From NCBI GenBank assembly GCA_029551925.1, contig JAKPEO010000034.1:1-64000 (forward strand): 64,000 bases of DNA, read 5' to 3'. This stretch comes from a bacterium. GTDB taxonomy: Bacteria; JAGOBX01. Below the pieces are notes generated by a model, which was not told the DNA's origin, ran no database searches, and saw only the letters and a program-made list of their open reading frames with translations. The position numbers and the translations under genes were made by a program. Positions 1,339 through 64,000 of this stretch are shown here, in pieces (within the stretch, counting starts at the first letter, position 1; each line of letters opens with the position of its first letter).

Positions 1339-3891
1339 TTAAAATTTATAACTCACTGTTGCAATATATTTATCGCCGGTCTTTTCGCCGAACGCATATT
1401 GTCTGCGGTCTGGTCTCAAACTCGCAGATAATGCAAATTCGCCGTTGTTATTGAATATTGTCTTTGCTAATCTTAAATTTATAAACATATATGCTTTAAC
1501 ATTTTCATAACTTATACTCTGTGCGCTCATTTTATAAAGCTCGCCGTTAACAGCGCGCGCTGCTGCTGAACCTATCTGGGTATCAGATAAAGTGGTCGAA
1601 GTTCCAGCTATATTCACACTATGATTACCGCCTAAAGATGTTCCGCTGGCTGCTATTAAAAACGATGCTTCTGTATCTGTCATAATAGCTGCTAATGCTG
1701 AAAATGGTGTAAATGCTATTGACACCACATTGCCGCCTAATTTTTCATAAATATATGCACCGTCTTTTAAATATTTATCTTTATATAAATCTGTCGACCG
1801 CGCAAGCACAAACGCGCCGGCATTAGCCGATAAATCTTTATTAATCTGCGCTAATGTCTGGTCCATTACATTAGTAATCGATACTTCCGAAGAACTTACA
1901 TAATTAACAGTGCCTGAAAAACTCCAGCCATTAGAGAATTTATTGAATGTTCCGATAGTAGCCAATTGCGAAGGCGTGCCTTTATAATCTCTATCTTGAA
2001 ACTTCGCATTTTGATAAGAATAACTGCCGAATAATCTTGTTGATTTACTCAAATTATAATTCATACCTAATTCTAAACCATTAGCTTTGAATTTTCCTTG
2101 AAGATTAACAGAACTCAAATCTAATGCTGATGCAGTTTGCGCTTGTAGTGGTATTGCAGTGCCGCCAATATAAATTGTAGGATTAAGAGGATGCCAGCTC
2201 AAACTATCGTGAGTATCAACATTATACGCTATCATATCTTTTGTCTGATAGTGATATAAATTAACATCTAAATTCAATTTTTTGAAAATTGTCGAATAGC
2301 CCAATTCATAAGATTTAATAGTCATAGGATTTAGATTTTCATTTGGTATTAATCTAATAATCGGAGCTAAACCTCCGCCAGGTAAAGTGCCTGCTGAAAA
2401 TTGAGCGTTAGTAAATAAATCTGCAATAAACGGCGCGCGTATTGCCTGTGAATACATTAATCTAACAGTATGTTCATCTTTTGGCTTATAAAATAAAATT
2501 GATTGCGGCGAAAATTTTGCTTTATCCGGTGTATCGTATTTATCCCATCTTGTTCCTACAATCCATTTGAGATTATCAGTAAGTTTGAGTTCGTTATTAA
2601 AAAATCCGGCGATAAACCGCTGCTCTTTTTCTTTCATATCGCGGAAATATACATCATCAGCCCGACTTTTAACTTCACGCCAGTTGATACCAGCCACTAA
2701 AATATCATTATCAGAAATTTGAAATACATTTTGAATATCCAAATCAGTAGAGTTCCAACTCATACCGTCCTGATCGTCTTCTGTCCCTTTGGTAGTTTTA
2801 GCATAATCTCCTAATATTCCATTTATATTTGATAATGCTACTTTCAAATCCTTCCATTGATAAGTTAATTTAATTACATTTTGTTCGAAATTATCATAAT
2901 TACAAATCATCAAATCGCCAGAAGTGCCAGTTAAATTCACGCTGCTGCCTTCACTGCGTCCTAACTGCAAATTCAAAAGCGCATCATCATTAAATTTATA
3001 CTGCATAAATGATGATATACGATAAGCGTCTAATGCTTTTTTAGATACTTTCGGATAATCAGGATTAAGCGGAAATCCTGCATCCGGCGATGCTAATAAT
3101 GAGTGGCGATTTTCTTCATATCTTTTATAAGTATGATTATAAGACATATTATCAAACGCATATTTTCTCGTTAAATCTGTGCTTATGCGATACGAAAATT
3201 TCGAACCGTCTTGACCATAACGGATAGATGTCAAATTACCAAATCGATTGTCGTCTAATTTTGAAGTAGATGCGGCATTAAGAACTAATCCTGATGATAC
3301 ATAAAATCCTGCAGTTTTTTTATAATCTTTTGTTATAATATTTATAACACCAGTAACAGCATTCGCGCCGAATAGCGCCGACGCTGGGCCGCGCACAACT
3401 TCGATTCTGTCAATATCATCAACAGTAATAGGTAAAAATTCCCAGAATGTTCCGCCGAATACATCATTAAAATATGATCGTCCATCAATCATAACAAGTA
3501 TATTGCGCGAATACGAAGCAAATGCTCCCGCTTCTTTTGGCCCGTTAGTTAATCCGCGAATTGCGACATCTTGCTGACCGTTGGTTGTTTCTTGAACATA
3601 TACCCCCGGCACCATTCGCAATACTTCCGCGATACTTTGAGCACCATACATTTTTATGTCATCTGCTGTAATAACAGAAATCGCAACTGGCGCGTCGCTT
3701 AATTTCTGTGCGCGCTTTGACGCTGATACTACTATCTGCTCTTCTACTTTAAAGAACGCTTCTTCGCTTGCGTCATCATCAGTAAAAGCATTGATTAACG
3801 GAGCATTGAAAATAATGAAACTAAATATAATCAGCAAACACACTAATTTAAAAAACACGCTAATTTTTTGGAAAAATTCTGGTTTTGCCAT
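1339..3891 (-). CDS. TonB-dependent outer-membrane receptor
   Basis: An 850-residue outer-membrane active-transport receptor. It has a signal peptide with a long hydrophobic core, then a plug domain with VVSASKR (a TonB-box-like region), APVAISVITADDI, EVLRMVPGVYVQ, VRGPASALFGANAVTGVINI, and a C-terminal barrel whose last strand ends in an aromatic residue (VSYKF), as expected for BAM-assembled proteins. The substrate (siderophore, vitamin or glycan) cannot be told from sequence, and no TonB/ExbBD or ABC transporter is nearby. The start is set at the ATG of MAKPEFF because GGAGGG (3898-3903) stands 6 bases upstream; the open frame continues 45 codons further but without signal-peptide character or a ribosome site. 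Confidence 0.92.
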   Translation of the reverse strand: MAKPEFFQKISVFFKLVCLLIIFSFIIFNAPLINAFTDDDASEEAFFKVEEQIVVSASKRAQKLSDAPVAISVITADDIKMYGAQSIAEVLRMVPGVYVQETTNGQQDVAIRGLTNGPKEAGAFASYSRNILVMIDGRSYFNDVFGGTFWEFLPITVDDIDRIEVVRGPASALFGANAVTGVINIITKDYKKTAGFYVSSGLVLNAASTSKLDDNRFGNLTSIRYGQDGSKFSYRISTDLTRKYAFDNMSYNHTYKRYEENRHSLLASPDAGFPLNPDYPKVSKKALDAYRISSFMQYKFNDDALLNLQLGRSEGSSVNLTGTSGDLMICNYDNFEQNVIKLTYQWKDLKVALSNINGILGDYAKTTKGTEDDQDGMSWNSTDLDIQNVFQISDNDILVAGINWREVKSRADDVYFRDMKEKEQRFIAGFFNNELKLTDNLKWIVGTRWDKYDTPDKAKFSPQSILFYKPKDEHTVRLMYSQAIRAPFIADLFTNAQFSAGTLPGGGLAPIIRLIPNENLNPMTIKSYELGYSTIFKKLNLDVNLYHYQTKDMIAYNVDTHDSLSWHPLNPTIYIGGTAIPLQAQTASALDLSSVNLQGKFKANGLELGMNYNLSKSTRLFGSYSYQNAKFQDRDYKGTPSQLATIGTFNKFSNGWSFSGTVNYVSSSEVSITNVMDQTLAQINKDLSANAGAFVLARSTDLYKDKYLKDGAYIYEKLGGNVVSIAFTPFSALAAIMTDTEASFLIAASGTSLGGNHSVNIAGTSTTLSDTQIGSAAARAVNGELYKMSAQSISYENVKAYMFINLRLAKTIFNNNGEFALSASLRPDRRQYAFGEKTGDKYIATVSYKF

Positions 3892-9749: not shown

Positions 9750-11030
9750 TTAAATCAATTCTCCAAATAAGTCATAATCAAATGATTGAATAATCTTTAT
9801 ATTATAAAATTTATTTAAGTCAATATTTTTTTTTGTTTTGAATAAAATATATCCGTCTATTTCAGGCGCATTGTATTCATTTCTCGCTAAATATAATTTA
9901 TTTTTTTCATCATAGCCGTCTATTAAAATCTTTTGAATAGTTCCAATATATTTTTTATTTTGCGCGCGACTGATATTCTGCTGCTGCTTCATTACCAAAT
10001 CGAATCTTTTTTCTTTTAAAGCGTCTGAGATTTTGCCGTTAAGATTATATGAATAAGTATCCACTTCGTCTGAATATTTAAAACAGCCGAGTTTATCAAA
10101 CCGCAATATTTTCAAAGTTTCAAGCATCCGCTTAAATATCTTTTGCGTTTCGTTCGGATAGCCGACTATCACTGCGCTTCTTAGTGCGATATTTGGATTA
10201 TATTTTCTAATAAAATCCACTAATTCAATAATTTTATTTTTATTATAAGGTCTGCGCATCGCTTTTAATATTTCGGTTTCTGTATGCTGTATCGGCATAT
10301 CAATATATTTACATATTTTTTCATTATCGCTGATAAATTTTATCAAAGATTTTGTAATGCCGTCAGGATTGAGATACATCAATCTTATTCTATAATCAAA
10401 CTTAAATTCAAGCATTTTTTTTAATAACTCAATCAACCCATATTTTATTTTAATATCTTTGCCGTAATAACAAGTATCCTGCGAGACAATAATCAATTCC
10501 TTAATTTTTCGTTTCAATAAATATTCAGTTTCTGCAAGTATCGAATCAATCGAGCGACTGACATATCTGCCCTTGATTTTCGGAATAGTACAATATCCGC
10601 ATTTTTTATTACAACCGTCTGAAATCTTTATATACGCATAATCTAATTTTTCTTTATTTGTCCGATATATAAAATTTTCATTTTGATTTCTAAAACTCAA
10701 TAAATGATAAGCAATATCATTCAGCGGTGCTATTATAATTTTATCTTGAAATTTATCTATCAGCATTTCTTTATTGCGATTTATATAACAGCCGGTAACA
10801 ACTACTGTCTGCTTAGTTTTTTTCGTTTGCAAGATTTTTTTTATAACTTCGTCAGATTGATTAATCGCGGGCTGGATAAATGCGCAAGTATTGACAATTA
10901 TATAATCTGCAATTGCTATTTTTTCGGTTTCTATTAAGCGTCCAAATAATTGTTTGCGTATAGCATCGGATTCAACATCATTTTTCGGACAGCCCAAAGT
11001 GATTATATAATACTTTTTTTTTGGCGGCAT
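9750..11030 (-). CDS. rimO: Ribosomal protein S12 methylthiotransferase
   Basis: A 426-residue radical-SAM methylthiotransferase that modifies the conserved aspartate of ribosomal protein S12. The N-terminal MTTase domain has its three cluster cysteines (C14 in LGCPKN, C49, C81). The radical-SAM CxxxCxxC is C140, C144, C147 (SDGCNKKCGYC), followed by TIPKIKGRYVSR, which is the RimO rather than the MiaB form. A C-terminal TRAM domain (from about 355) ends in YDLFGELI. No Shine-Dalgarno is visible. It lies between the fliJ-like gene (9 bases upstream) and pgsA. Confidence 0.93.
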   Translation of the reverse strand: MPPKKKYYIITLGCPKNDVESDAIRKQLFGRLIETEKIAIADYIIVNTCAFIQPAINQSDEVIKKILQTKKTKQTVVVTGCYINRNKEMLIDKFQDKIIIAPLNDIAYHLLSFRNQNENFIYRTNKEKLDYAYIKISDGCNKKCGYCTIPKIKGRYVSRSIDSILAETEYLLKRKIKELIIVSQDTCYYGKDIKIKYGLIELLKKMLEFKFDYRIRLMYLNPDGITKSLIKFISDNEKICKYIDMPIQHTETEILKAMRRPYNKNKIIELVDFIRKYNPNIALRSAVIVGYPNETQKIFKRMLETLKILRFDKLGCFKYSDEVDTYSYNLNGKISDALKEKRFDLVMKQQQNISRAQNKKYIGTIQKILIDGYDEKNKLYLARNEYNAPEIDGYILFKTKKNIDLNKFYNIKIIQSFDYDLFGELI

Positions 11031-11039
11031 ATTGAGTTA

Positions 11040-11489
11040 TTATTTTTCTAATTGTTTCCTTAAATATTGATTTGTCCCGATTTCATCAAGCGTAAGATTC
11101 TCTTTATATTCCAAATCTTTTAAAAATTTAGCGTATTGTTTTTCTTTTAATTTTTCGAGGACTTTAACTTTCTGCATTGCAATCATAACCTGCTTTTTTT
11201 TAGCGGATATTTCATTATTCAATTGTATTATTATTTTTTTTTGAATATCTATATCGCTTGAAATTTTTTCTGTATAATGCTTTAATGATGTAATATGTCT
11301 GACATCAATACTACCAGTCAAACAATCTGTTAATGTTTTATATGTTTCTTCTAATGTTCTATACATATTTTTTAAATTTTCGGTCTCGCGATATAATTCG
11401 CTTTGCAATATCGCCAACTGATTCTCTAATTTTTCTAATGTATAATATCTAATCTTTAATAATCTCTCAAATTTAAAAACAAACTTCAT
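11040..11489 (-). CDS. FliJ-like coiled-coil protein
   Basis: 149 residues, almost entirely helical and coiled coil. It begins FVFKFERLLKIR and ends with a VLEKLKEKQYAKFLKD segment plus an LDEIG tail, which fits FliJ, the soluble coiled-coil subunit of the flagellar export ATPase complex. No other flagellar gene is in the window, so the assignment rests on this one protein and a flagellum or another type III export system elsewhere would be required. The ATG at 11489 is taken; a TTG two codons upstream is possible. The start directly abuts the terminator of the upstream gene, and no ribosome site is visible. Confidence 0.65.
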   Translation of the reverse strand: MKFVFKFERLLKIRYYTLEKLENQLAILQSELYRETENLKNMYRTLEETYKTLTDCLTGSIDVRHITSLKHYTEKISSDIDIQKKIIIQLNNEISAKKKQVMIAMQKVKVLEKLKEKQYAKFLKDLEYKENLTLDEIGTNQYLRKQLEK

Positions 11490-11546
11490 AATCAAAATAA
11501 TAAAAGCGCCGTCAAATTTTTATTAAAAAAAAATCAAACGGCGCTT
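11490..11546 (-). terminator. Intrinsic terminator of the dihydropyrimidine-dehydrogenase-like gene
   Basis: AAGCGCCGT (11504-11512) and ACGGCGCTT (11538-11546) give a 9-base G+C-rich stem. On the minus strand it is followed by TTTTATTATTTT. It lies 22 bases past the stop of the 835-residue gene and ends exactly at the start codon of the fliJ-like gene. Confidence 0.8.
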
Positions 11547-11567
11547 AATAAAAAAACAAATTTAAAA

Positions 11568-14075
11568 TTAATCTTCTTTAAGCATCGCTAATTCTTCTTT
11601 TGTGCGTTTTCGTAAACTCAATGCTTTAGCAAAACATTTCAATGCGCAAATACCGCAGCCGATACATTTAGACGGATCGGTTTTTGGTATTTTATTTTCG
11701 TCAAGCGTAATCGCCAAATACGGACAGCGCGCGCAATTTCCACAGTGTTCGCATAAATCCTGATTAACGCTCGATATTTTTTTGACTGGCGATAATTCCA
11801 TAAAATCAATAATCGGATTAGGTAATATTATGCCTATTAATTCTTTCATTGATTTAATACCGCGCTGTTTCATTATTTCGCTTACGCCGTTTACTAATTC
11901 ATTATAAATTCCATAACCGTATTTTGTCGGCATAGTGCAGAATTGAACTGTTGTGCAGCCCAATGCGAGAAAATCTGCGGCCGCTTTATAATTCATCGGT
12001 CCGCCGTTTCCTGAAATATTAAGTTTCAAAGACGAAATTTTCGCTAAATTCAAATTGCTGATAGGCGTAACCGCTTCGCCGCTCATACCAATAACAACGC
12101 CTTCTTCCCATACTTTATTTCTGCGATTTTGAAAATCTAATGTCGGAAAAGTATTTGCTAATGTTATCCCTGCTTTTTTCTTTGGATATTTATCAAATAC
12201 TCTTTTTACAGCTTTGCCAATCACTTCAATTGAAGTCACTGCGCCAGTTAATTTGAATAATTTAGGAATATTAGGATCGCTTATTTCCATTACCCAATCT
12301 ATTATTTTCGCGGTAAGTTCAGGATTTTGCGATACTATATCGCCTTCTGTGCCGTCGCCGCCTTGTGGACAAGATAAACTATATTCTATTCCCATAACTC
12401 CTGCTTTTTCTAATTTGCGAGTATTAGACTGCCAGCCCTTTTTATCGCTTTCGTCATTACCTGTTACAGGTCCGCCTGTTGACGCCATTATTAATCTATC
12501 AGGATATAATTTCACAAGTTTTTTTATCTCTGCGCATACTCTACTTAATGAATGGCCTGAAACATTATCGCAATTGCCATAAGTTTGATCATTATACATA
12601 CACATATATTCGCCTGGAATATGTATTGGCACTCCGTCAAACGCTGTTTTCATTATACCGCCAGCCCAACCTGCTTCAAATGCTCGTTTCATTTGTTCAA
12701 ATCCGTCTGATGTCGGAGCGGCTGACAAAATAAACGGCGAACGAATCTTTCTTCCGAAGAACTCTGTTTCTAATGATACCGGCAGCGGATTATAGCCGTC
12801 GATTGATTCATAAGTTTTTACCGGCTTTTCGATTTTCGGCGCTTTTTTATTTAATACATAAGCTTCAACTAATGCGCCTGTATTTTTGCCGGACGCTACC
12901 GCTTCTACAACCGTTGTCGGTCCATTCGCGCAATCTCCGCTATAAAATACGCCTTTGATATTTTTTTTCTTTAAACCAGAATGATTGCCTATTGCAATTA
13001 TCACAAAATCTATATCATTACGCGATTGATTGGTATTCGGCACTTCTTTAATATCGCGTAAATTAAATTTTACATCTTTCGGCAATTCTACTTTTACAGT
13101 TGTTAAACCATTTATTGTTTTCTTATCATTACTAATTATTGATGTTACTTTTATTCTGCCGTTAACATCAATGCCTGACTCTACTAATTCGCGCATTTCG
13201 CGAACAGTCAAATTCATTTCACCTAATACTTCTAATGCAAATATTTCTACGCGTTTTGCGCCTAACTTTTGAGCGATAAACGCACAATCAGCAGCTGTTG
13301 CGCCGCCACCGATAACCGCTACTCTTTTATTTTTTACATTGTATGATTTTGGAGTTTTTAAATATTCAGTGCCAGCTACTGCTAAATCTTCATTACATAT
13401 ATTCATTTTATAAGGAACAGGTAATCCTATTGCTACAATAACAGCATCGTATTGCTTTTTTAATTTTTCAATTTCACTTTCTTTTATTTCTTTGCCATAA
13501 TTAACTTTTATATTTGACAAATTAAAAACAAAATCTAAATCTGATTTTAATACATATTTCGGCAATCTAAAATCAGGTATCAAATTACAAGCGCCGCCGG
13601 CTTTATCATTTTTTTCAAATATTTCTACTTTAAAACCTTTTTGTGTTAAATACGCGGCTGCAGCAACGCCAGCTGGCCCAGCGCCGATTATTGCTACTTT
13701 CTTGCCGTTTGATTTTGCTTTTGAAAATTCAGGTAAAACTTTCAATTCCTTTGCGCGCTGAACTATTGTTGATTGGATATTCGGTATATCAAGCGACATA
13801 TCAAATTCATTGTGCACGCAAGCGCGCATACAAAATTTATCCGGACATACCATTCCGCATACTCCGCCAAGCGGATTATTTTTTAATATCGCTGCTGTTG
13901 CTCTGCGAAAATCAGACGGATTTTGCAATTTCGCAGCCATTATAAAATCAGCAGGTGAACAATTTGCCGGACACGCTTCGCGACAGGGCTTTTCCTCGCA
14001 ATACTCGCATTTATTAATTTCATTTTTGAGTTGCCCTTCTGACATAAAAAAATTTCGGTCTTTTAATTTTTTCAA
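11568..14075 (-). CDS. Single-chain dihydropyrimidine dehydrogenase-like flavoprotein (PreT-PreA fusion order)
   Basis: 835 residues in the domain order of eukaryotic DPYD: an N-terminal Fe-S domain (C23, C26, C31, C35, C39, then VCGMVCP and CMRAC), a GltD-like FAD/NAD(P) domain (GAGPAGVAAAAYL; second nucleotide site GGGATAADCAFIAQ), a dihydroorotate-dehydrogenase-like FMN barrel (about 430-740, with LSCPQG), and two C-terminal 4Fe-4S clusters. The first cluster is CX2CX2CX2CP (775, 778, 781, 784), one residue shorter than usual; the second is 804, 807, 810, 814. It likely moves electrons from NAD(P)H to a pyrimidine or similar substrate. The mammalian catalytic cysteine loop after LSCP is not conserved here, so the substrate is open. 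The start is TTG with GAGGTGAGG just upstream (14080-14088); ATG at codon 11 is the alternative. Confidence 0.82.
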   Translation of the reverse strand: MKKLKDRNFFMSEGQLKNEINKCEYCEEKPCREACPANCSPADFIMAAKLQNPSDFRRATAAILKNNPLGGVCGMVCPDKFCMRACVHNEFDMSLDIPNIQSTIVQRAKELKVLPEFSKAKSNGKKVAIIGAGPAGVAAAAYLTQKGFKVEIFEKNDKAGGACNLIPDFRLPKYVLKSDLDFVFNLSNIKVNYGKEIKESEIEKLKKQYDAVIVAIGLPVPYKMNICNEDLAVAGTEYLKTPKSYNVKNKRVAVIGGGATAADCAFIAQKLGAKRVEIFALEVLGEMNLTVREMRELVESGIDVNGRIKVTSIISNDKKTINGLTTVKVELPKDVKFNLRDIKEVPNTNQSRNDIDFVIIAIGNHSGLKKKNIKGVFYSGDCANGPTTVVEAVASGKNTGALVEAYVLNKKAPKIEKPVKTYESIDGYNPLPVSLETEFFGRKIRSPFILSAAPTSDGFEQMKRAFEAGWAGGIMKTAFDGVPIHIPGEYMCMYNDQTYGNCDNVSGHSLSRVCAEIKKLVKLYPDRLIMASTGGPVTGNDESDKKGWQSNTRKLEKAGVMGIEYSLSCPQGGDGTEGDIVSQNPELTAKIIDWVMEISDPNIPKLFKLTGAVTSIEVIGKAVKRVFDKYPKKKAGITLANTFPTLDFQNRRNKVWEEGVVIGMSGEAVTPISNLNLAKISSLKLNISGNGGPMNYKAAADFLALGCTTVQFCTMPTKYGYGIYNELVNGVSEIMKQRGIKSMKELIGIILPNPIIDFMELSPVKKISSVNQDLCEHCGNCARCPYLAITLDENKIPKTDPSKCIGCGICALKCFAKALSLRKRTKEELAMLKED

Positions 14076-14120
14076 TTTTCCTCACCTCATATATATTTTT
14101 TTGTAATTTTAAAGAAAGAT

Positions 14121-14149
14121 ATTATACTAAAAACCAATAAATAAATCAA
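14121..14149 (-). promoter_or_regulatory. Sigma-70 promoter of the dihydropyrimidine-dehydrogenase-like gene
   Basis: The minus strand reads TTGATT (14144-14149), 17 bases, TATAAT (14121-14126). It would start transcription near 14114, about 40 bases ahead of the TTG start codon and its GAGGTG. Confidence 0.65.
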
Positions 14150-14284
14150 TCATCAAATAAACATTTTTGAATGCAGGTATAAATTTGTTCCAAATAACTT
14201 AAAAAATACTAACCATAAACAAAAAGCCGCAATACAACGCAGATACAAAATTTTGATTACAATTTTATTTTTATATAAAAAATC

Positions 14285-14312
14285 TTGACATAAAAGAGTA
14301 GTTTAATATAAT
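14285..14312 (+). promoter_or_regulatory. Perfect-consensus sigma-70 promoter of the TPR gene
   Basis: TTGACA (14285-14290), a 16-base spacer and TATAAT (14307-14312). Transcription would start near 14319, which excludes the TTG at 14315 as a start codon and leaves the ATG at 14339 or 14360. Confidence 0.75.
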
Positions 14313-14338
14313 GATTGTTTTACAATTTTTTAATTGAA

Positions 14339-15160
14339 ATGGAGAGTGTAATTATTCAAATGCAGAAAAATAAGATAAAAATAACCAGAGAAGATCTTAA
14401 AAGAAATGAATTGATAGAATTCTTCAAAAGAATAAAAACATATTTTCAGGAAAAAAACGAAAAACTAAAACCAATAATAATAGGCGGATTAGTGGCTGCT
14501 ATTATTGTTGTTATAGTCTGGATTTCTATCAAAAAAAAAATCGAAGAAGCGAATGAACGCTATACTAATGCGCTGTATAAATACACTAACAGCATATTTC
14601 AAGGCAGCCCGAGTTATGACCATATAATCGGCGAATTACAAGGCGCATATAATACATTCACCAAAACTAATTTAGCAAAAATTATGATTTTAAATATTGC
14701 TGACGCTTATTATCGCAATAAAGATTATCCAAACGCGCTGACGCATTACGACAAATTTTTAAAAGCAAACAATAATCCGACATTTGCGGCGCTGGCAAAA
14801 TATGGAAAATCATTAGTTTTTATAGAGCAGCAAGATTTCGGCAGCGCTATTAATTTATTAAAAGAATTAGCAGCGGATAATACCGCTGAATTCATAAGAC
14901 CTGAAATATTAATTCAATCCGCGATAGTTTATTCAAAATTAAAAGACGATGAAAATGCTAAAAAATCATTAGAAGAAATAATCAATAATCCCGAATTAGA
15001 AAATAGTTCGTGGAAAATCTATGCAAGTTATCTAATGATTTTATTGCAGCAAAAAAAGAATCTGCCGGAAATAAATTATAATTTAGCGACAAGCAGCGCA
15101 GATAATATTTCAGACACAACTGATATTTTAAATTTTTTTGATACAAAAACTGTAAAATAA
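14339..15160 (+). CDS. Membrane-anchored TPR protein (YfgM-like)
   Basis: About 273 residues. A short basic cytoplasmic N-terminus is followed by one transmembrane helix (IIIGGLVAAIIVVIVWISI) and then tetratricopeptide helices (for example NALTHYDKFLKANNNPTFAALAK in two overlapping parts). This layout resembles YfgM/TPR_21 proteins, single-pass inner-membrane proteins that act with periplasmic chaperones near the Sec translocon. Function here is inferred from architecture only. The ATG at 14339 is annotated; the ATG at 14360 has a GGAGAG 13 bases upstream. It is transcribed alone from a near-perfect promoter and is convergent with the receiver-HEAT gene. Confidence 0.75.
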   Translation: MESVIIQMQKNKIKITREDLKRNELIEFFKRIKTYFQEKNEKLKPIIIGGLVAAIIVVIVWISIKKKIEEANERYTNALYKYTNSIFQGSPSYDHIIGELQGAYNTFTKTNLAKIMILNIADAYYRNKDYPNALTHYDKFLKANNNPTFAALAKYGKSLVFIEQQDFGSAINLLKELAADNTAEFIRPEILIQSAIVYSKLKDDENAKKSLEEIINNPELENSSWKIYASYLMILLQQKKNLPEINYNLATSSADNISDTTDILNFFDTKTVK

Positions 15161-15187
15161 ATAAACTCAAAATTTTATTTTTATATT

Positions 15188-16021
15188 TCAAGTAGGTTTC
15201 TTTTTTTTGCGCTGTTCACGCATCATTTTTTTAAAGCCGTCTAATAAATCCTTGACTTCTTCTTCTTTTCCTAATTGTTTGATTGTCAGGACAGCCGCCA
15301 TTTTGACATCTATGGTTTCTGTTTGATTTCTTAAAATCGCGCAAATTTTACCGTAAGCGCGCTGTTCTTCTAATTCGCCGACAGCCCAAACGGCTTTTTC
15401 GCGAAGCATCGGGTCTTCATCTTCAAGCAATTCCAATAATTCTTTTAAATATTTTTTTGTTTTAGTAGAGCCTACCGCTATAACAGCTTCGCATCTTACA
15501 GCAGACCCATATTTTTTATCAGATATAAACATTCCCAATTTATTTTCTATAAAATCTTTATCATTATTTTTAACAGCGTCGCGAATGCGATTTATCAACG
15601 ACAATTCCACGCTTTTATTATAATGAGTATTAGCTAAATTCGCTCTATTAATTTTTAGTAATTCGCATATTTTTTCTATTAATAAATTCATATTTACTGG
15701 TTTTGTCAAATACAAATCAGCGCCTAAATTTATCGCTGTTTGCTTATCGGTTTCCTGAGTTTTGGCTGTTACCATAATTACCTTTATATAATTACAATCC
15801 AAATCTGATTTTAGATGTTTCAGCACTTCAAAACCATTCATATCAGGCATCATAATATCAAGCAGCATCAAATCCGGCTTTAATCGTTTCACCATATTTA
15901 TTGCCGCGCAGCCGCAGTCGGCGGCCATTACATCAAATCCGTTTTTTTCGAGTGTATATTTAATTATCTCTCTAATATATATTTGGTCGTCAACAACTAA
16001 AATTTTATATTTTTTTTCCAT
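15188..16021 (-). CDS. Response regulator receiver fused to HEAT repeats
   Basis: 277 residues. The receiver domain (1-125) has the acidic pair D11/D12, phospho-acceptor D55 (LLDIMMPDMNG), T85/A86 and K107 (TKP), so it should be phosphorylatable. Instead of a DNA-binding output it continues into HEAT-type helical repeats (about 165-265, with EDPMLREKAVWAVGEL), a protein-interaction scaffold. It is the last gene of the minus-strand operon that begins at 20924, 22 bases after the PP-loop gene. The cognate kinase is not adjacent. A second HEAT protein lies in the signalling locus at 39.9 kb. Confidence 0.85.
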   Translation of the reverse strand: MEKKYKILVVDDQIYIREIIKYTLEKNGFDVMAADCGCAAINMVKRLKPDLMLLDIMMPDMNGFEVLKHLKSDLDCNYIKVIMVTAKTQETDKQTAINLGADLYLTKPVNMNLLIEKICELLKINRANLANTHYNKSVELSLINRIRDAVKNNDKDFIENKLGMFISDKKYGSAVRCEAVIAVGSTKTKKYLKELLELLEDEDPMLREKAVWAVGELEEQRAYGKICAILRNQTETIDVKMAAVLTIKQLGKEEEVKDLLDGFKKMMREQRKKKKPT

Positions 16022-59092: not shown

Positions 59093-60490
59093 ATGAAAAT
59101 TGAAAATTTAGATAGCGAAAAGAAATTTGCGCGGAGCGACCGCGTAGCGGAATTATTAAAACGCGCAATTTCTGAAATTATTCAAAATAAACTCAAAGAT
59201 TCGCGCGTCGGCTTTACGACAGTGAGCGCTGTAAAAGTATCAAATGATTTGCGTATAGCAAATGTTTATGTCAGCGTATTCGGCAAAAATTACGAAAAAA
59301 AACAGACGCTCGAAGCGCTCGAAGATTCCAAGCAATTTATTAGAACGCTTATCGGCAAAAATGTAATTTTAAAATATTTGCCGGATTTGCATTTTTTTAT
59401 TGATGATTCGCTTGATTACAGCGAAAAAATGACAAATATTATTTCTGGAATAAAACAGCAGTCATCAGAAAATTTAAAGAAAAAAATCGGTTTGGAATTG
59501 ACTGATGACGATATTCAAAAATTGAAAAATATCAATAATCGCTTAATGAACGCTGAAAGAATATTGCTTACTACTCATTTACGCGCAGACGGCGACGCGT
59601 TTGGATCATTGATGTCTATTTATAATTATTTAGATGGTCTGAATAAAAAAGTAAAAGTGGTTATTGACCACGGCTGCCCGCAGTATTTAGCGTGGCTGCC
59701 TGACAGCGGTTTGATTGAAGACAATAAAAATTTGTTGATTGACAAAAATTTTGATTTGTATGTCTGTATTGATTCTGACTTTGAAAAACGAGTTGGCTAT
59801 CCTTATGAAATTTTCAAAGATAAAGTAAACGATAATAATTTAATTGTCATTGACCATCATCCTGAAACAATAGCAAATACTAATTTAAAAATTCTAAAAA
59901 CAGAAGCAGCTGCGGCTGCTGAAATAATCTATTATTTTTTTAAAGTTAATGATATTCCGCTAAATGATAAAATTGCGCTGTATCTTTATGTGGGATTATT
60001 GACAGATACTTGGATGTTTAGTCAGGAAAATACTACTTCTACTACTTTATATATTGCTTCTGAATTATTAAAATTTGAGACAGTTCAGCCCTATCAATTG
60101 ACTATGCGGCTATTTGAAAATAAAACATTAGGTCAGACGAAATTATTAGGAAAACTAATAGAAACAATTGAAGTTGATGAAAAATATAAAATAGGCATAG
60201 GGCATATCTCATTAGAAATGTTTAAAGAAACAAACACAACCGAAGAGGACACCGAGGGTTTTGTAAATATTATTAGAGCGTTGAAAGGAGTAAATATCGC
60301 TGTTTTATTAAAACAGCAAAAAGATGGAAAATTCAAAGTAAATTTGCGCAGTAAAGATAAATTTAATTTGCTGCCATTTGTAAAAAAAATGGGCGGCGGC
60401 GGACATATCAAAGCAGCAGGTTTTACTTCGGAATTACCATTAATTGAAACCAAAAAAATTATTTTAGAAGAATTGAGGAAAATGTTGTGA
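59093..60490 (+). CDS. RbfA-NrnA fusion: ribosome-binding factor A plus DHH/DHHA1 oligoribonuclease
   Basis: 465 residues in one frame. Residues about 10-125 are RbfA (SDRVAELLKRAISEIIQNKL, DSRVGFTTVSAVKVSNDLR, ANVYVSVFG, LHFFIDDSLDYSEKM), the 30S maturation factor. Residues about 145-465 are an NrnA-type phosphoesterase: HLRADGDAFGS (about 161-171), VCIDSDFEKR, DHH motif D254-H256, LLTDTWMFS and DHHA1 GGGGH with H438. NrnA degrades oligoribonucleotides and pAp. In many bacteria rbfA, nrnA and truB are separate neighbours; here the first two are joined. A three-codon ATG-Lys-Lys-TGA with the better-placed AAGGAA (59085-59096) overlaps the true start in the ATGA manner. truB overlaps the end by 4 bases. 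Confidence 0.93.
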   Translation: MKIENLDSEKKFARSDRVAELLKRAISEIIQNKLKDSRVGFTTVSAVKVSNDLRIANVYVSVFGKNYEKKQTLEALEDSKQFIRTLIGKNVILKYLPDLHFFIDDSLDYSEKMTNIISGIKQQSSENLKKKIGLELTDDDIQKLKNINNRLMNAERILLTTHLRADGDAFGSLMSIYNYLDGLNKKVKVVIDHGCPQYLAWLPDSGLIEDNKNLLIDKNFDLYVCIDSDFEKRVGYPYEIFKDKVNDNNLIVIDHHPETIANTNLKILKTEAAAAAEIIYYFFKVNDIPLNDKIALYLYVGLLTDTWMFSQENTTSTTLYIASELLKFETVQPYQLTMRLFENKTLGQTKLLGKLIETIEVDEKYKIGIGHISLEMFKETNTTEEDTEGFVNIIRALKGVNIAVLLKQQKDGKFKVNLRSKDKFNLLPFVKKMGGGGHIKAAGFTSELPLIETKKIILEELRKML

Positions 60491-61392
60491 TAAAATTAGA
60501 CGGAGCATTTATAGTAGATAAACCAGAGAAATATACATCATTTGATATTGTTAATATTTTAAAAAAAAAATTTAAGTTAAAAAAAGCTGGGCATACTGGC
60601 ACACTCGACGGATTAGCAACAGGCGTGTTGATTGTTTGTGTGAATAATGCCACCAAACTTGTAGATTATTTGATAAACGATGATAAAGATTATTCTGTTG
60701 TTTTAAGATTGGGCTATAAATCTGATACATTTGACAGAGACGGCAAAGTAGAAAAAGCGCTGCTGCCTCCTCAGATTACTGATTTAGAAATAAGAAAAAC
60801 CGTGCTCTCTTTTATAGGCGAACAAGACCAAATTCCGCCTATGTATTCAGCGAAAAAAAAAGACGGTAAAAAACTTTATAAATTAGCGCGGCAAGGCATA
60901 GAAGTAACGCGCGAACCGCAACGCATAAAAATTGATTTTTTGAAAATTAACAAAATTGTTAGAGCGCAGGATAATGATTACATTGACATTCATTTTGATG
61001 CTACTGTCAGCAAAGGAACATATATACGGACACTATGCGCTGATATTGCTAAAAAATTAGGGACAAGCGGTATAATGCAGGATTTAAGACGCACGCGCGT
61101 CGGAAAATTTACAATTGATAATGCTAAACCGCTTAAAGAAATTACAGAAAACGATTTACTCGATATTTCGCAAATATCAAATTTGCCTATTTTAGACATA
61201 CCATTACAATCAGTTCAAAAATTTATGAACGGCGGCTATTTAACTGATTTTGAATTGAACGACTGCGAATTTCAGAAATATATAAATTCAACTGTGTTAG
61301 TTCGCAGTAAAGGCGATATTGTTATAGGTATAGCAAATGTCACAGAGATAAAATACAGACGAATTCAGCCGGTAAAAGTTTTTACATTTTAA
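60487..61392 (+). CDS. truB: tRNA pseudouridine-55 synthase
   Basis: 301 residues. The catalytic aspartate is D41 in GHTGTLDGLATGVL; KPEKYTSFDIV, PPMYSAKKKDGKKLYKLARQG and VSKGTYIRTLCADIAKKLG are the other TruB landmarks. It makes pseudouridine at position 55 in the T-loop of tRNAs. The GTG start overlaps the TGA of the RbfA-NrnA fusion (GTGA), so translation is coupled. Together with trmFO the window encodes both T-loop modifications (m5U54 and pseudouridine 55). Confidence 0.95.
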   Translation: MIKLDGAFIVDKPEKYTSFDIVNILKKKFKLKKAGHTGTLDGLATGVLIVCVNNATKLVDYLINDDKDYSVVLRLGYKSDTFDRDGKVEKALLPPQITDLEIRKTVLSFIGEQDQIPPMYSAKKKDGKKLYKLARQGIEVTREPQRIKIDFLKINKIVRAQDNDYIDIHFDATVSKGTYIRTLCADIAKKLGTSGIMQDLRRTRVGKFTIDNAKPLKEITENDLLDISQISNLPILDIPLQSVQKFMNGGYLTDFELNDCEFQKYINSTVLVRSKGDIVIGIANVTEIKYRRIQPVKVFTF

Positions 61393-61484: not shown

Positions 61485-62477
61485 TCAAAGCATATTGTTT
61501 TGTTTATACCATTCATAGGTTTCAAATAATGCTATTTTTATATCGGTAAATCTAAATTCTGGAAAATTAGCCAAAAATTTAGAATTTGAACACAGCCAAT
61601 ATTTTTTCTGTAATTCATTTAATTTTTCTTTATTTAATAATAACGGCTTTTTTAAAATATTACTGATGAAATCTTGTATTATCCCTAATATTCGCACAAT
61701 AAATAACGGCAGCCCTATACATATTGGCTGCTTTTTCATTATTTCAGCAATAAGCAATGCAAATTCTTTAACTGTATAATTTTCGCTATTACATACAAAA
61801 AATATTTCGCCGCTCTGTATTTTATCTGATTCTGCAATTAAAATTGTTGCTTTAACTAAATCGCGGACATACACAACTGAAAATTTTAAATCGCCTTTGC
61901 TGACATATAAAACAATATTATTTTTTATCATCTTGAAATAAGTATAAATATCTTTTTCAGCTGCGCCAAATACTGCTGGCGGGCGAATAATAACATAATT
62001 TAATTTATCTTTGACGCTTGCTAAATATTCTTCAGCTAAAAATTTTGATTTGCCATAACTATTCAGCGGCTGACATTGAGCATTTTCATCTAATAATTCA
62101 CCGCTATCAGCGCTCGGCCCGGCAGCAGCTTGACTCGAACAAAATACAAATCTCTTTAATCTCAAATTATTAATTTTCAATAATCGCTCTACTAATTTTT
62201 TTGTATAACCGCAATTGACTTTATAATATTCGTTTTTATCATAATGTTTCGTCAGTCCAGCAAAATGATAAATATAATCAAACTGTCTAAAATATTCATC
62301 TGATAATTCATCAATTTTATCAAATTCTGCATTTATTAGTTTAACTTTATCCAGTGGCAATATCCCATTACTTTTTTTAGAGCGGACAATACAATATACT
62401 TCACAGCCATTATTAACTAATTGTTTCGCTAAATGACTGCCGATAAATCCAGTAGCGCCGGTAATCAATATCTTCAT
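61485..62477 (-). CDS. Extended SDR / NAD-dependent epimerase family, candidate ceramide-pathway reductase (CerR-like)
   Basis: 330 residues. The Rossmann motif is ILITGATGFIGSHLA, catalytic S114/S115 and Y141-x3-K145 (SYGKSK), and a C-terminal substrate domain. By itself it is an atypical extended SDR of unknown substrate. The context suggests the 3-ketosphinganine/ceramide reduction step: in Caulobacter the ceramide pathway uses a serine palmitoyltransferase, a GNAT-like ceramide synthase and an epimerase-type reductase (CerR). The same three families lie here in one operon. It begins 2 bases after the GNAT gene. Confidence 0.8.
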   Translation of the reverse strand: MKILITGATGFIGSHLAKQLVNNGCEVYCIVRSKKSNGILPLDKVKLINAEFDKIDELSDEYFRQFDYIYHFAGLTKHYDKNEYYKVNCGYTKKLVERLLKINNLRLKRFVFCSSQAAAGPSADSGELLDENAQCQPLNSYGKSKFLAEEYLASVKDKLNYVIIRPPAVFGAAEKDIYTYFKMIKNNIVLYVSKGDLKFSVVYVRDLVKATILIAESDKIQSGEIFFVCNSENYTVKEFALLIAEIMKKQPICIGLPLFIVRILGIIQDFISNILKKPLLLNKEKLNELQKKYWLCSNSKFLANFPEFRFTDIKIALFETYEWYKQNNML

Positions 62478-62479
62478 TT

Positions 62480-63604
62480 TTATTCTATTTTATTCTCAAA
62501 AATTCTGTAGGTCTTATAATGCTTTAAACCAAAATTTATTAATATTTTATTCATTACAAGATTATCTTCTAATATCCACGATAATTCTGTGCCTGCGTTA
62601 AATCTTTCGCCATTATATTTTATTGCTTGCTGAATTAAATAAATATCAATTGCTCGCCGACGAAATTTATGCGATATTCCTAATGTAATAACTCTACCGC
62701 GATTAATTTTTTTAAAATTCAATAATATTTTCAGCCAGCCGAACGGCAATAATCTGCCATTAATTTTTTTCAATATAAAATTAAAATCCGGCAGCGCAAT
62801 CAAAAAACCAGCCGGTTGATCCTCAGTATACGCTAATAACACGCACTCTTCTGGCACAAATGTTTTTAATTCTTTGCCCATATTATAAAATTCGCGGTAA
62901 GTCATCGGCACAAATCCCCAGTTTTTTTCCCAAGCGTCATTATATATTTCATTTAATATTTTAATTTCATCTTCAAATTTTCGAAAATTAATTTTTCTAC
63001 AAGTTAATTTATAGCGGTTGATGAATTTTGAAATATCTACAGCCATTATTTTTTTATATGTCTCATAATCTAAATAATATGCCCATAAATCCTTGACTTT
63101 ATAATGCCCTAATTCTATTAATAACTTTTCATAATATTCAAAATTATACGGCATCATTATCAGCGGTGCGCTGTCAAATGAATCAACTAATAATCCAGAT
63201 ATTTCATTTGTCGAAAATGTAAATGGTCCGCGCACAATTTTTATATCATTTTTTTTGAAAAATTCATAAACTGCACTAAATAATTTTTCTGCTGCTGTTT
63301 TATCGTTTATAATTTCAAAACTACCCCAAAAACCAATTTGTTCATTATGAAAAGAATTATAATTTTCATTAATATTAGCGGATATTCTACCAACTACCTG
63401 ATTATCTTTCAAACATAAAAATAATTTTACTTTTGAATGTTCGAAAAACGCATTCTTTTTAGAATTGTAAAATTCGATTTCCTGTAATTTTAATGGCGGA
63501 ACCCAATATTTGTTTTTTTTATATAATTTATAAGGAAAATCAATAAATTCTTTTAATTGTTGTTTGGTGATAACTTCAATTACTTGATAATCGGCAAAAC
63601 TCAT
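62480..63604 (-). CDS. GNAT-fold acyltransferase, candidate bacterial ceramide synthase (bCerS-like)
   Basis: 374 residues. It starts with an extended segment ending in FPYKLYKKNKYWVPPL, then an acyltransferase-like fold (LFLCLKDNQVVGRISANINE, IGFWGSFEII, VRGPFTFSTNEISGLLVD), and a second GNAT-like half (LLAYTEDQPAGFLIALPDFN, RGRVITLGISHKFRRRAID) with an RRRAID segment at the CoA-binding position. The size and two-part build match the GNAT-annotated protein that acts as ceramide synthase in bacteria. Its start overlaps the stop of the serine-palmitoyltransferase-type gene (ATGA), which strongly supports a shared pathway. Substrate is inferred from context. Confidence 0.78.
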   Translation of the reverse strand: MSFADYQVIEVITKQQLKEFIDFPYKLYKKNKYWVPPLKLQEIEFYNSKKNAFFEHSKVKLFLCLKDNQVVGRISANINENYNSFHNEQIGFWGSFEIINDKTAAEKLFSAVYEFFKKNDIKIVRGPFTFSTNEISGLLVDSFDSAPLIMMPYNFEYYEKLLIELGHYKVKDLWAYYLDYETYKKIMAVDISKFINRYKLTCRKINFRKFEDEIKILNEIYNDAWEKNWGFVPMTYREFYNMGKELKTFVPEECVLLAYTEDQPAGFLIALPDFNFILKKINGRLLPFGWLKILLNFKKINRGRVITLGISHKFRRRAIDIYLIQQAIKYNGERFNAGTELSWILEDNLVMNKILINFGLKHYKTYRIFENKIE

Positions 63605-64000
63605 ATAATATTATTTTGCTTTGCTACTATTTTCATTTTTTCCAAAGTATAATCGATTTCAGCGAAGGTATGCGAAGCCATCAAACTCAATCTAATCAAC
63701 GCATTTCCCGGCGACACAGCTGGCGCAACAGCAGGATTAACAAATATCCCATGCTCTTGCAATTCTTTACACACTTTAAACGCCAGCATATCATCGCCAA
63801 TAAGGACAGGCAATATCGGCGTCTCGCCAGCGCTGGTCTTAAGGCCGGCGTCAACTAATCCTTTATGCATATATTTTGTATTTTCCCAAAGTTTAACAAT
63901 TCGTTCTGGTTCTTTTTGCATAATTTCAAGAGCGGCCGCTGCTGCTGCTACTGACGCTGGCGGCATACTCGCGCTAAAAATAAACGACCGAGAATTATGT
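63601..64000 (-). CDS. spt: Serine palmitoyltransferase-type alpha-oxoamine synthase, C-terminal part (5' end beyond the window)
   Basis: About 132 residues are in the window; the frame is open to the right edge, with HNSRSFIFSASMPPASVAAA spanning the inner edge, so the apparent ATG at 63966 is internal. The C-terminal domain of the PLP-dependent alpha-oxoamine synthases follows: TPILPVLIGDDMLAF, GIFVNPAVAPAVSPGNALIR and SLMASHTFAEIDYTLEKM. The PAVSPG...LIRxSxMAxHT form is closer to serine palmitoyltransferase than to BioF, Kbl or HemA. The enzyme would condense serine with a fatty acyl donor to 3-ketosphinganine. The PLP lysine lies outside the window. Confidence 0.78.
   Translation of the reverse strand, partial: HNSRSFIFSASMPPASVAAAAAALEIMQKEPERIVKLWENTKYMHKGLVDAGLKTSAGETPILPVLIGDDMLAFKVCKELQEHGIFVNPAVAPAVSPGNALIRLSLMASHTFAEIDYTLEKMKIVAKQNNII

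Follow-up and report, generated by a model that had tools for sequence, protein, structure and literature searches.

At the right edge of the window, by which we mean the whole 64-kb stretch of DNA analyzed here, we found a three-gene unit on the minus strand with the order spt-bcerS-cerR. The first gene runs off the window and was completed from the host contig (C36). The genes, together with the convergent housekeeping gene on the other side, are the following:

60487..61392, plus strand: truB, a housekeeping gene convergent with the operon and marking its downstream boundary
61485..62477, minus strand: extended SDR, ceramide/3-ketosphinganine reductase-like (CerR), 330 aa, 2-base gap after bCerS
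62480..63604, minus strand: predicted tandem-GNAT N-acyltransferase, bCerS-like, 374 aa, 4-base overlap with spt
63601..64000, minus strand: C-terminal 132 codons and stop of the predicted serine palmitoyltransferase gene (spt), running off the window
C36:63601-64782 (= L009:3602-4783), minus strand: full spt gene, 1182 bp, 393 aa

The upstream boundary is a divergent M29 peptidase gene located 5' of spt. The close packing announced by the original prediction (genes overlapping or 2 bases apart) is exactly what the completed locus has. Each of the three is an open frame of full length that matches a profile (Aminotran_1_2 at 201 bits for Spt, GNAT at 24 bits, just above the cut-off, and Epimerase at 125 bits for the SDR), and therefore they are not chance ORFs. 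The 226-base intergenic stretch 5' of spt carries a promoter-like site on the spt strand (TTGACT-17-TAAAAT), the frequency of which is within the chance expectation for AT-rich DNA. We looked for a specialised acyl carrier protein (ACP) or acyl-ACP synthetase adjoining the operon, one of the checks proposed for this locus, and found none, the neighbours being truB and the M29 peptidase gene. Neither were tdh or bio genes found adjoining it.

Directly upstream of truB, the ORF at 59093-60490 (plus strand) codes for RBFA (residues 14-117) fused to a DHH/DHHA1 (NrnA-like) phosphoesterase. RBFA, the ribosome-binding factor A, and the DHH/DHHA1 phosphoesterase are usually encoded by separate neighbouring genes.

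Identity of the three gene products

The first gene had been assigned to the serine-palmitoyltransferase (SPT) type from its C-terminus, and completing it bore this out. The 393-aa product has its PLP lysine at K241, just past the window edge, within the motif GTFSKS. This is the SPT form of the motif, which reads GTLGKA in E. coli Kbl and VTFGKG in BioF. The NHAS, VDEAHS and C-terminal VNPAVAPAVS..LIR stretches are conserved as well and align with SPTs. The best of all families was the NCBIfam equivalog for the Bacteroidota SPT (NF047600), with 579 bits against a curated cut-off of 640 bits; because this cut-off was set for the Bacteroidota form, the shortfall concerns the subtype of Spt and not its activity. 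The closest solved structure is the SPT of Sphingobacterium (PDB 3a2b), with 465 bits and ca. 50% identity, and the next group scores 290 bits.

In a careful tree of 49 proteins, Spt was found in a clade with every SPT reference (Sphingobacterium, Parabacteroides, Sphingomonas, Roseomonas, Klebsiella and Rubrobacter) with a support of 100/100. This clade leaves out Kbl, BioF and one Kbl/BioF-like enzyme. A quick tree of 66 proteins agrees on the SPT clade (99 SH-aLRT); both trees were built without HemA. The paralogue from the host genome itself (C93), with an identity of just 35%, falls outside the clade. Compared with the Bacteroidota-type SPT (NF047600; Sphingobacterium multivorum, 3a2b), the enzyme shares the catalytic motifs, the clade and its level of identity over the full length, but it is located beside and not inside the Bacteroidota group, joining one sequence from Acidobacteriota and one uncultured sequence (94/87, careful tree), and stays under the family cut-off. 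We conclude that the first gene is a Bacteroidota-type serine palmitoyltransferase gene, the activity of the product being predicted.

For the second gene product the profile support was weak (the 24 bits to Pfam GNAT mentioned above), with no match among the NCBIfam profiles, the PHROGs or, at E up to 1, in a PDB sequence search. As the latter gave nothing, the fold was predicted with AlphaFold2 (pLDDT 93.7, pTM 0.90). The top Foldseek matches of the model were tandem-GNAT structures over the full length, in agreement with the 'two-part' GNAT protein described before. As references we used genes from spt-acp-acs-cerR and spt-GNAT-SDR clusters, a set to which the Caulobacter bCerS and CerR do not belong. 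The protein was 31-36% identical over ca. 98% of its length to genes of the SPT clusters of Roseomonas, Sphingomonas, Klebsiella and Rubrobacter. The Roseomonas relative (31% identity, 98% of the length) is found on a plasmid, in a cluster that also codes for an ACP, an Spt-type aminotransferase, a diacylglycerol-kinase-family protein, LptF/G-like permeases, a fatty acyl-AMP ligase and an epimerase-type reductase. In Rubrobacter the relative occupies the middle position in a tightly packed spt-GNAT-SDR operon. This full-length similarity indicates that the protein is bCerS-like. This agrees with the proposal that the locus holds the same three families as the Caulobacter Spt, bCerS and CerR. 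A lack of similarity to bCerS had been named as the result that would speak against it, and the GNAT aligns end to end with those of Caulobacter-type clusters. Hence, the second gene is bacterial ceramide synthase-like and its predicted activity is that of an N-acyltransferase, although GNAT homology alone is no proof of bCerS activity because some close homologues are encoded at loci that have no spt in the vicinity.

The third gene is an extended SDR, as proposed, with the Epimerase profile match given above and both motifs intact (TGATGFIG in the Rossmann fold and the catalytic YGKSK starting at Y141). Its scores against the SPT-linked SDRs of other phyla reached 186 bits, versus at most 71 bits against the 19 other best-scoring SDRs of its own genome. 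It shared 21-28% identity with the reference-cluster SDRs. Among these, the Klebsiella (98 bits) and Sphingomonas (84 bits) proteins exceeded GalE (58 bits), while the one from the Roseomonas cluster (52 bits) was about level with GalE and HldD (54 bits). The product is a putative CerR-like reductase, an assignment less certain than the other two due to the low identity to the alpha- and gammaproteobacterial cluster reductases (21-24%). The CerR of Caulobacter was reported to be periplasmic (PMC11087976); the N-terminus of the SDR found here (MKILITGATGFIG) has no obvious signal peptide.

Proposed pathway and alternative readings

We consider that the operon probably makes a ceramide or 1-deoxyceramide backbone, with a probability of about 0.9. 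The gene identities, the operon layout and the intact catalytic motifs of Spt and CerR can be read directly in the sequence, and the activities are taken from families with proven members. Ceramide forms the core of membrane lipids that are characteristic of animals and fungi. In the proposed pathway, Spt would form 3-ketosphinganine by condensing a fatty acyl thioester with serine or perhaps alanine, the tandem-GNAT protein would attach another fatty acyl group to the amine (N-acylation), and the SDR would reduce the 3-keto group using NAD(P)H. The order of the steps is disputed: acylation followed by reduction is favoured in Caulobacter (PMC11087976), and BT_0972 of Bacteroides directly reduces 3-ketosphinganine (PMC9278070). 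The lipid would then probably go into the envelope of the host, presumably into its outer membrane. The host genome (2.96 Mb, 86% complete, 31% GC) contains LpxC and Omp85, which indicates an LPS-type diderm, as had been supposed.

The Caulobacter-type spt/bCerS/CerR pathway (PMC11087976, PMC9386255) shares with the window the three families and their clustering. The operon described here differs in being a tight three-gene unit in the order spt-bcerS-cerR, in belonging to another SPT subgroup and in the missing adjacent specialised ACP/acyl-ACP synthetase. In the literature an adjacent ACP/acyl-ACP synthetase has been tied to Rhodobacteria only, and a separate Bacteroidetes/deltaproteobacterial SPT subgroup is recognised (PMC9386255). 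The Spt of the window goes with the latter, where having neither an ACP nor an acyl-ACP synthetase next to it is usual. Closer in layout is the plasmid operon of Rubrobacter radiotolerans (NZ_CP007515), which together with those of diverse MAGs has the same families, order and similarly tight spacing, but its proteins are only 28-46% identical to ours and Rubrobacter belongs to the Actinomycetota.

Spt has homologues among the alpha-oxoamine synthases, cysteate-C-fatty acyltransferase included, and the first enzyme might therefore use a different substrate, either alanine, leading to 1-deoxyceramides, or cysteate, leading to sulfonolipids, and the backbone would then be sphingolipid-like and not a classical ceramide. 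Alanine can in fact be taken by Spt according to a study that also reports abundant 1-deoxysphingolipids (PMC11334938). However, Spt scored 243 bits against the cysteate acyltransferase, far from the value for the Sphingobacterium SPT, and it groups with the Bacteroidota SPTs, which makes this reading rather unlikely. Much less credible still is that the first gene is a paralogue of BioF or Kbl within a cluster for biotin or threonine metabolism. The PLP superfamily is shared and the BioF model still gives 405 bits (385 bits for the glycine C-acetyltransferase model), but the SPT clade stands fully supported apart from both enzymes, the lysine motif is of the SPT type and the adjoining tdh or bio genes are missing. 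Clustering with BioF or Kbl had been set down as evidence against the original prediction; both trees put Spt with the SPTs, and by tree and motif we reject this identity.

The remaining alternative concerns the host, as the operon could have come in by contamination during binning or by recent transfer and would then not be a stable trait of the lineage. We compared two genomes of the phylum, and in the second one (87% complete) we found neither the operon nor a bCerS relative; the only alpha-oxoamine synthase there was a distant one, placed outside the SPT clade. Moreover, the same operon is plasmid-borne in Rubrobacter. Against this, the contig that carries the operon is 94 kb long, with truB on one side of the operon, the M29 peptidase gene on the other and obgE and mutL nearby, and the GC content of the operon (32%) agrees with that of the window (31%). 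Contamination is therefore unlikely, and we regard this reading as a whole as quite improbable. A loss in the second genome (G001) is possible, and so is an older transfer into the host lineage. The preferred reading is thus still an spt-bcerS-cerR operon that would belong to the host and produce a ceramide or 1-deoxyceramide backbone.

Distribution of the gene set in bacteria

Scanning 84,980 species genomes, we obtained at least 573 relatives of the GNAT protein, and the linkage was analyzed for the best 80. Among these best 80 of at least 573, an spt homologue was located within 1.5 kb of the GNAT gene in 47, belonging to 17 named phyla, and both spt and a CerR-like SDR lay within 2.5 kb in 31. 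In another 20 of the same 80 the flanks extended for at least 3 kb with no spt nearby. The spt-linked genes were strongly clustered in the GNAT tree, and eight of the nine members of the group containing the window protein were spt-linked.

The idea that ceramide synthesis is patchy in bacteria, and that this operon would extend its known range, has largely been overtaken. Spt-like genes have been described in Black Sea MAGs of 38 phyla (40 phyla in total), with the three genes often clustered (PMC11334938). Considering this survey together with the gene set detected here across at least 17 named phyla, the claim of an unusual range fails, and dozens of bacterial phyla already have a known or predicted spt-bcerS-cerR set. 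The RpoB of the host was closest to those of two Spirochaetota (57-58%) among the 42 genomes giving a match. We found no paper linking sphingolipids with Muiribacteriota, Wallbacteria or Riflebacteria. Tentatively, and with the odds somewhat against it, the host may represent a lineage of phylum rank without reported sphingolipid synthesis, to which the operon would add one phylum of predicted producers. The locus changes no principle, but it adds a clean and complete spt-bcerS-cerR operon for a poorly sampled, low-GC, LPS-bearing lineage and fits the growing picture of sphingolipids as common bacterial components. Being tightly packed, with three genes and no dedicated ACP, the operon is also a handy minimal cassette for heterologous tests of the step order.

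The close GNAT relatives lacking spt formed groups of their own, from Ignavibacteriota/Chlorobiota on one side and Chloroflexota on the other (loci L032, L034, L037, L043 and L057; in Chloroflexota L031, L068 and L075). In these groups, either the genome has its spt at another place or the GNAT acts on another substrate. At a different locus (L016, genome G022), a bCerS-like GNAT gene (1501-2604) adjoins an alpha-oxoamine synthase gene (2683-3813) whose product was outside the SPT clade in both trees; this pair may represent a related lipid pathway that uses a different amino acid. Finally, genes annotated as YghO or N-acetyltransferase, with products 33-35% identical to the GNAT of the window, appear close to genes for SPT and ACP on plasmids of enterobacteria, indicating that sphingolipid gene sets occur there too:

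E. coli plasmid NZ_MG591698, region 9846-15416: with a GNAT-like gene near SPT/ACP
Klebsiella michiganensis conjugative plasmid (L117): GNAT-like gene near SPT/ACP
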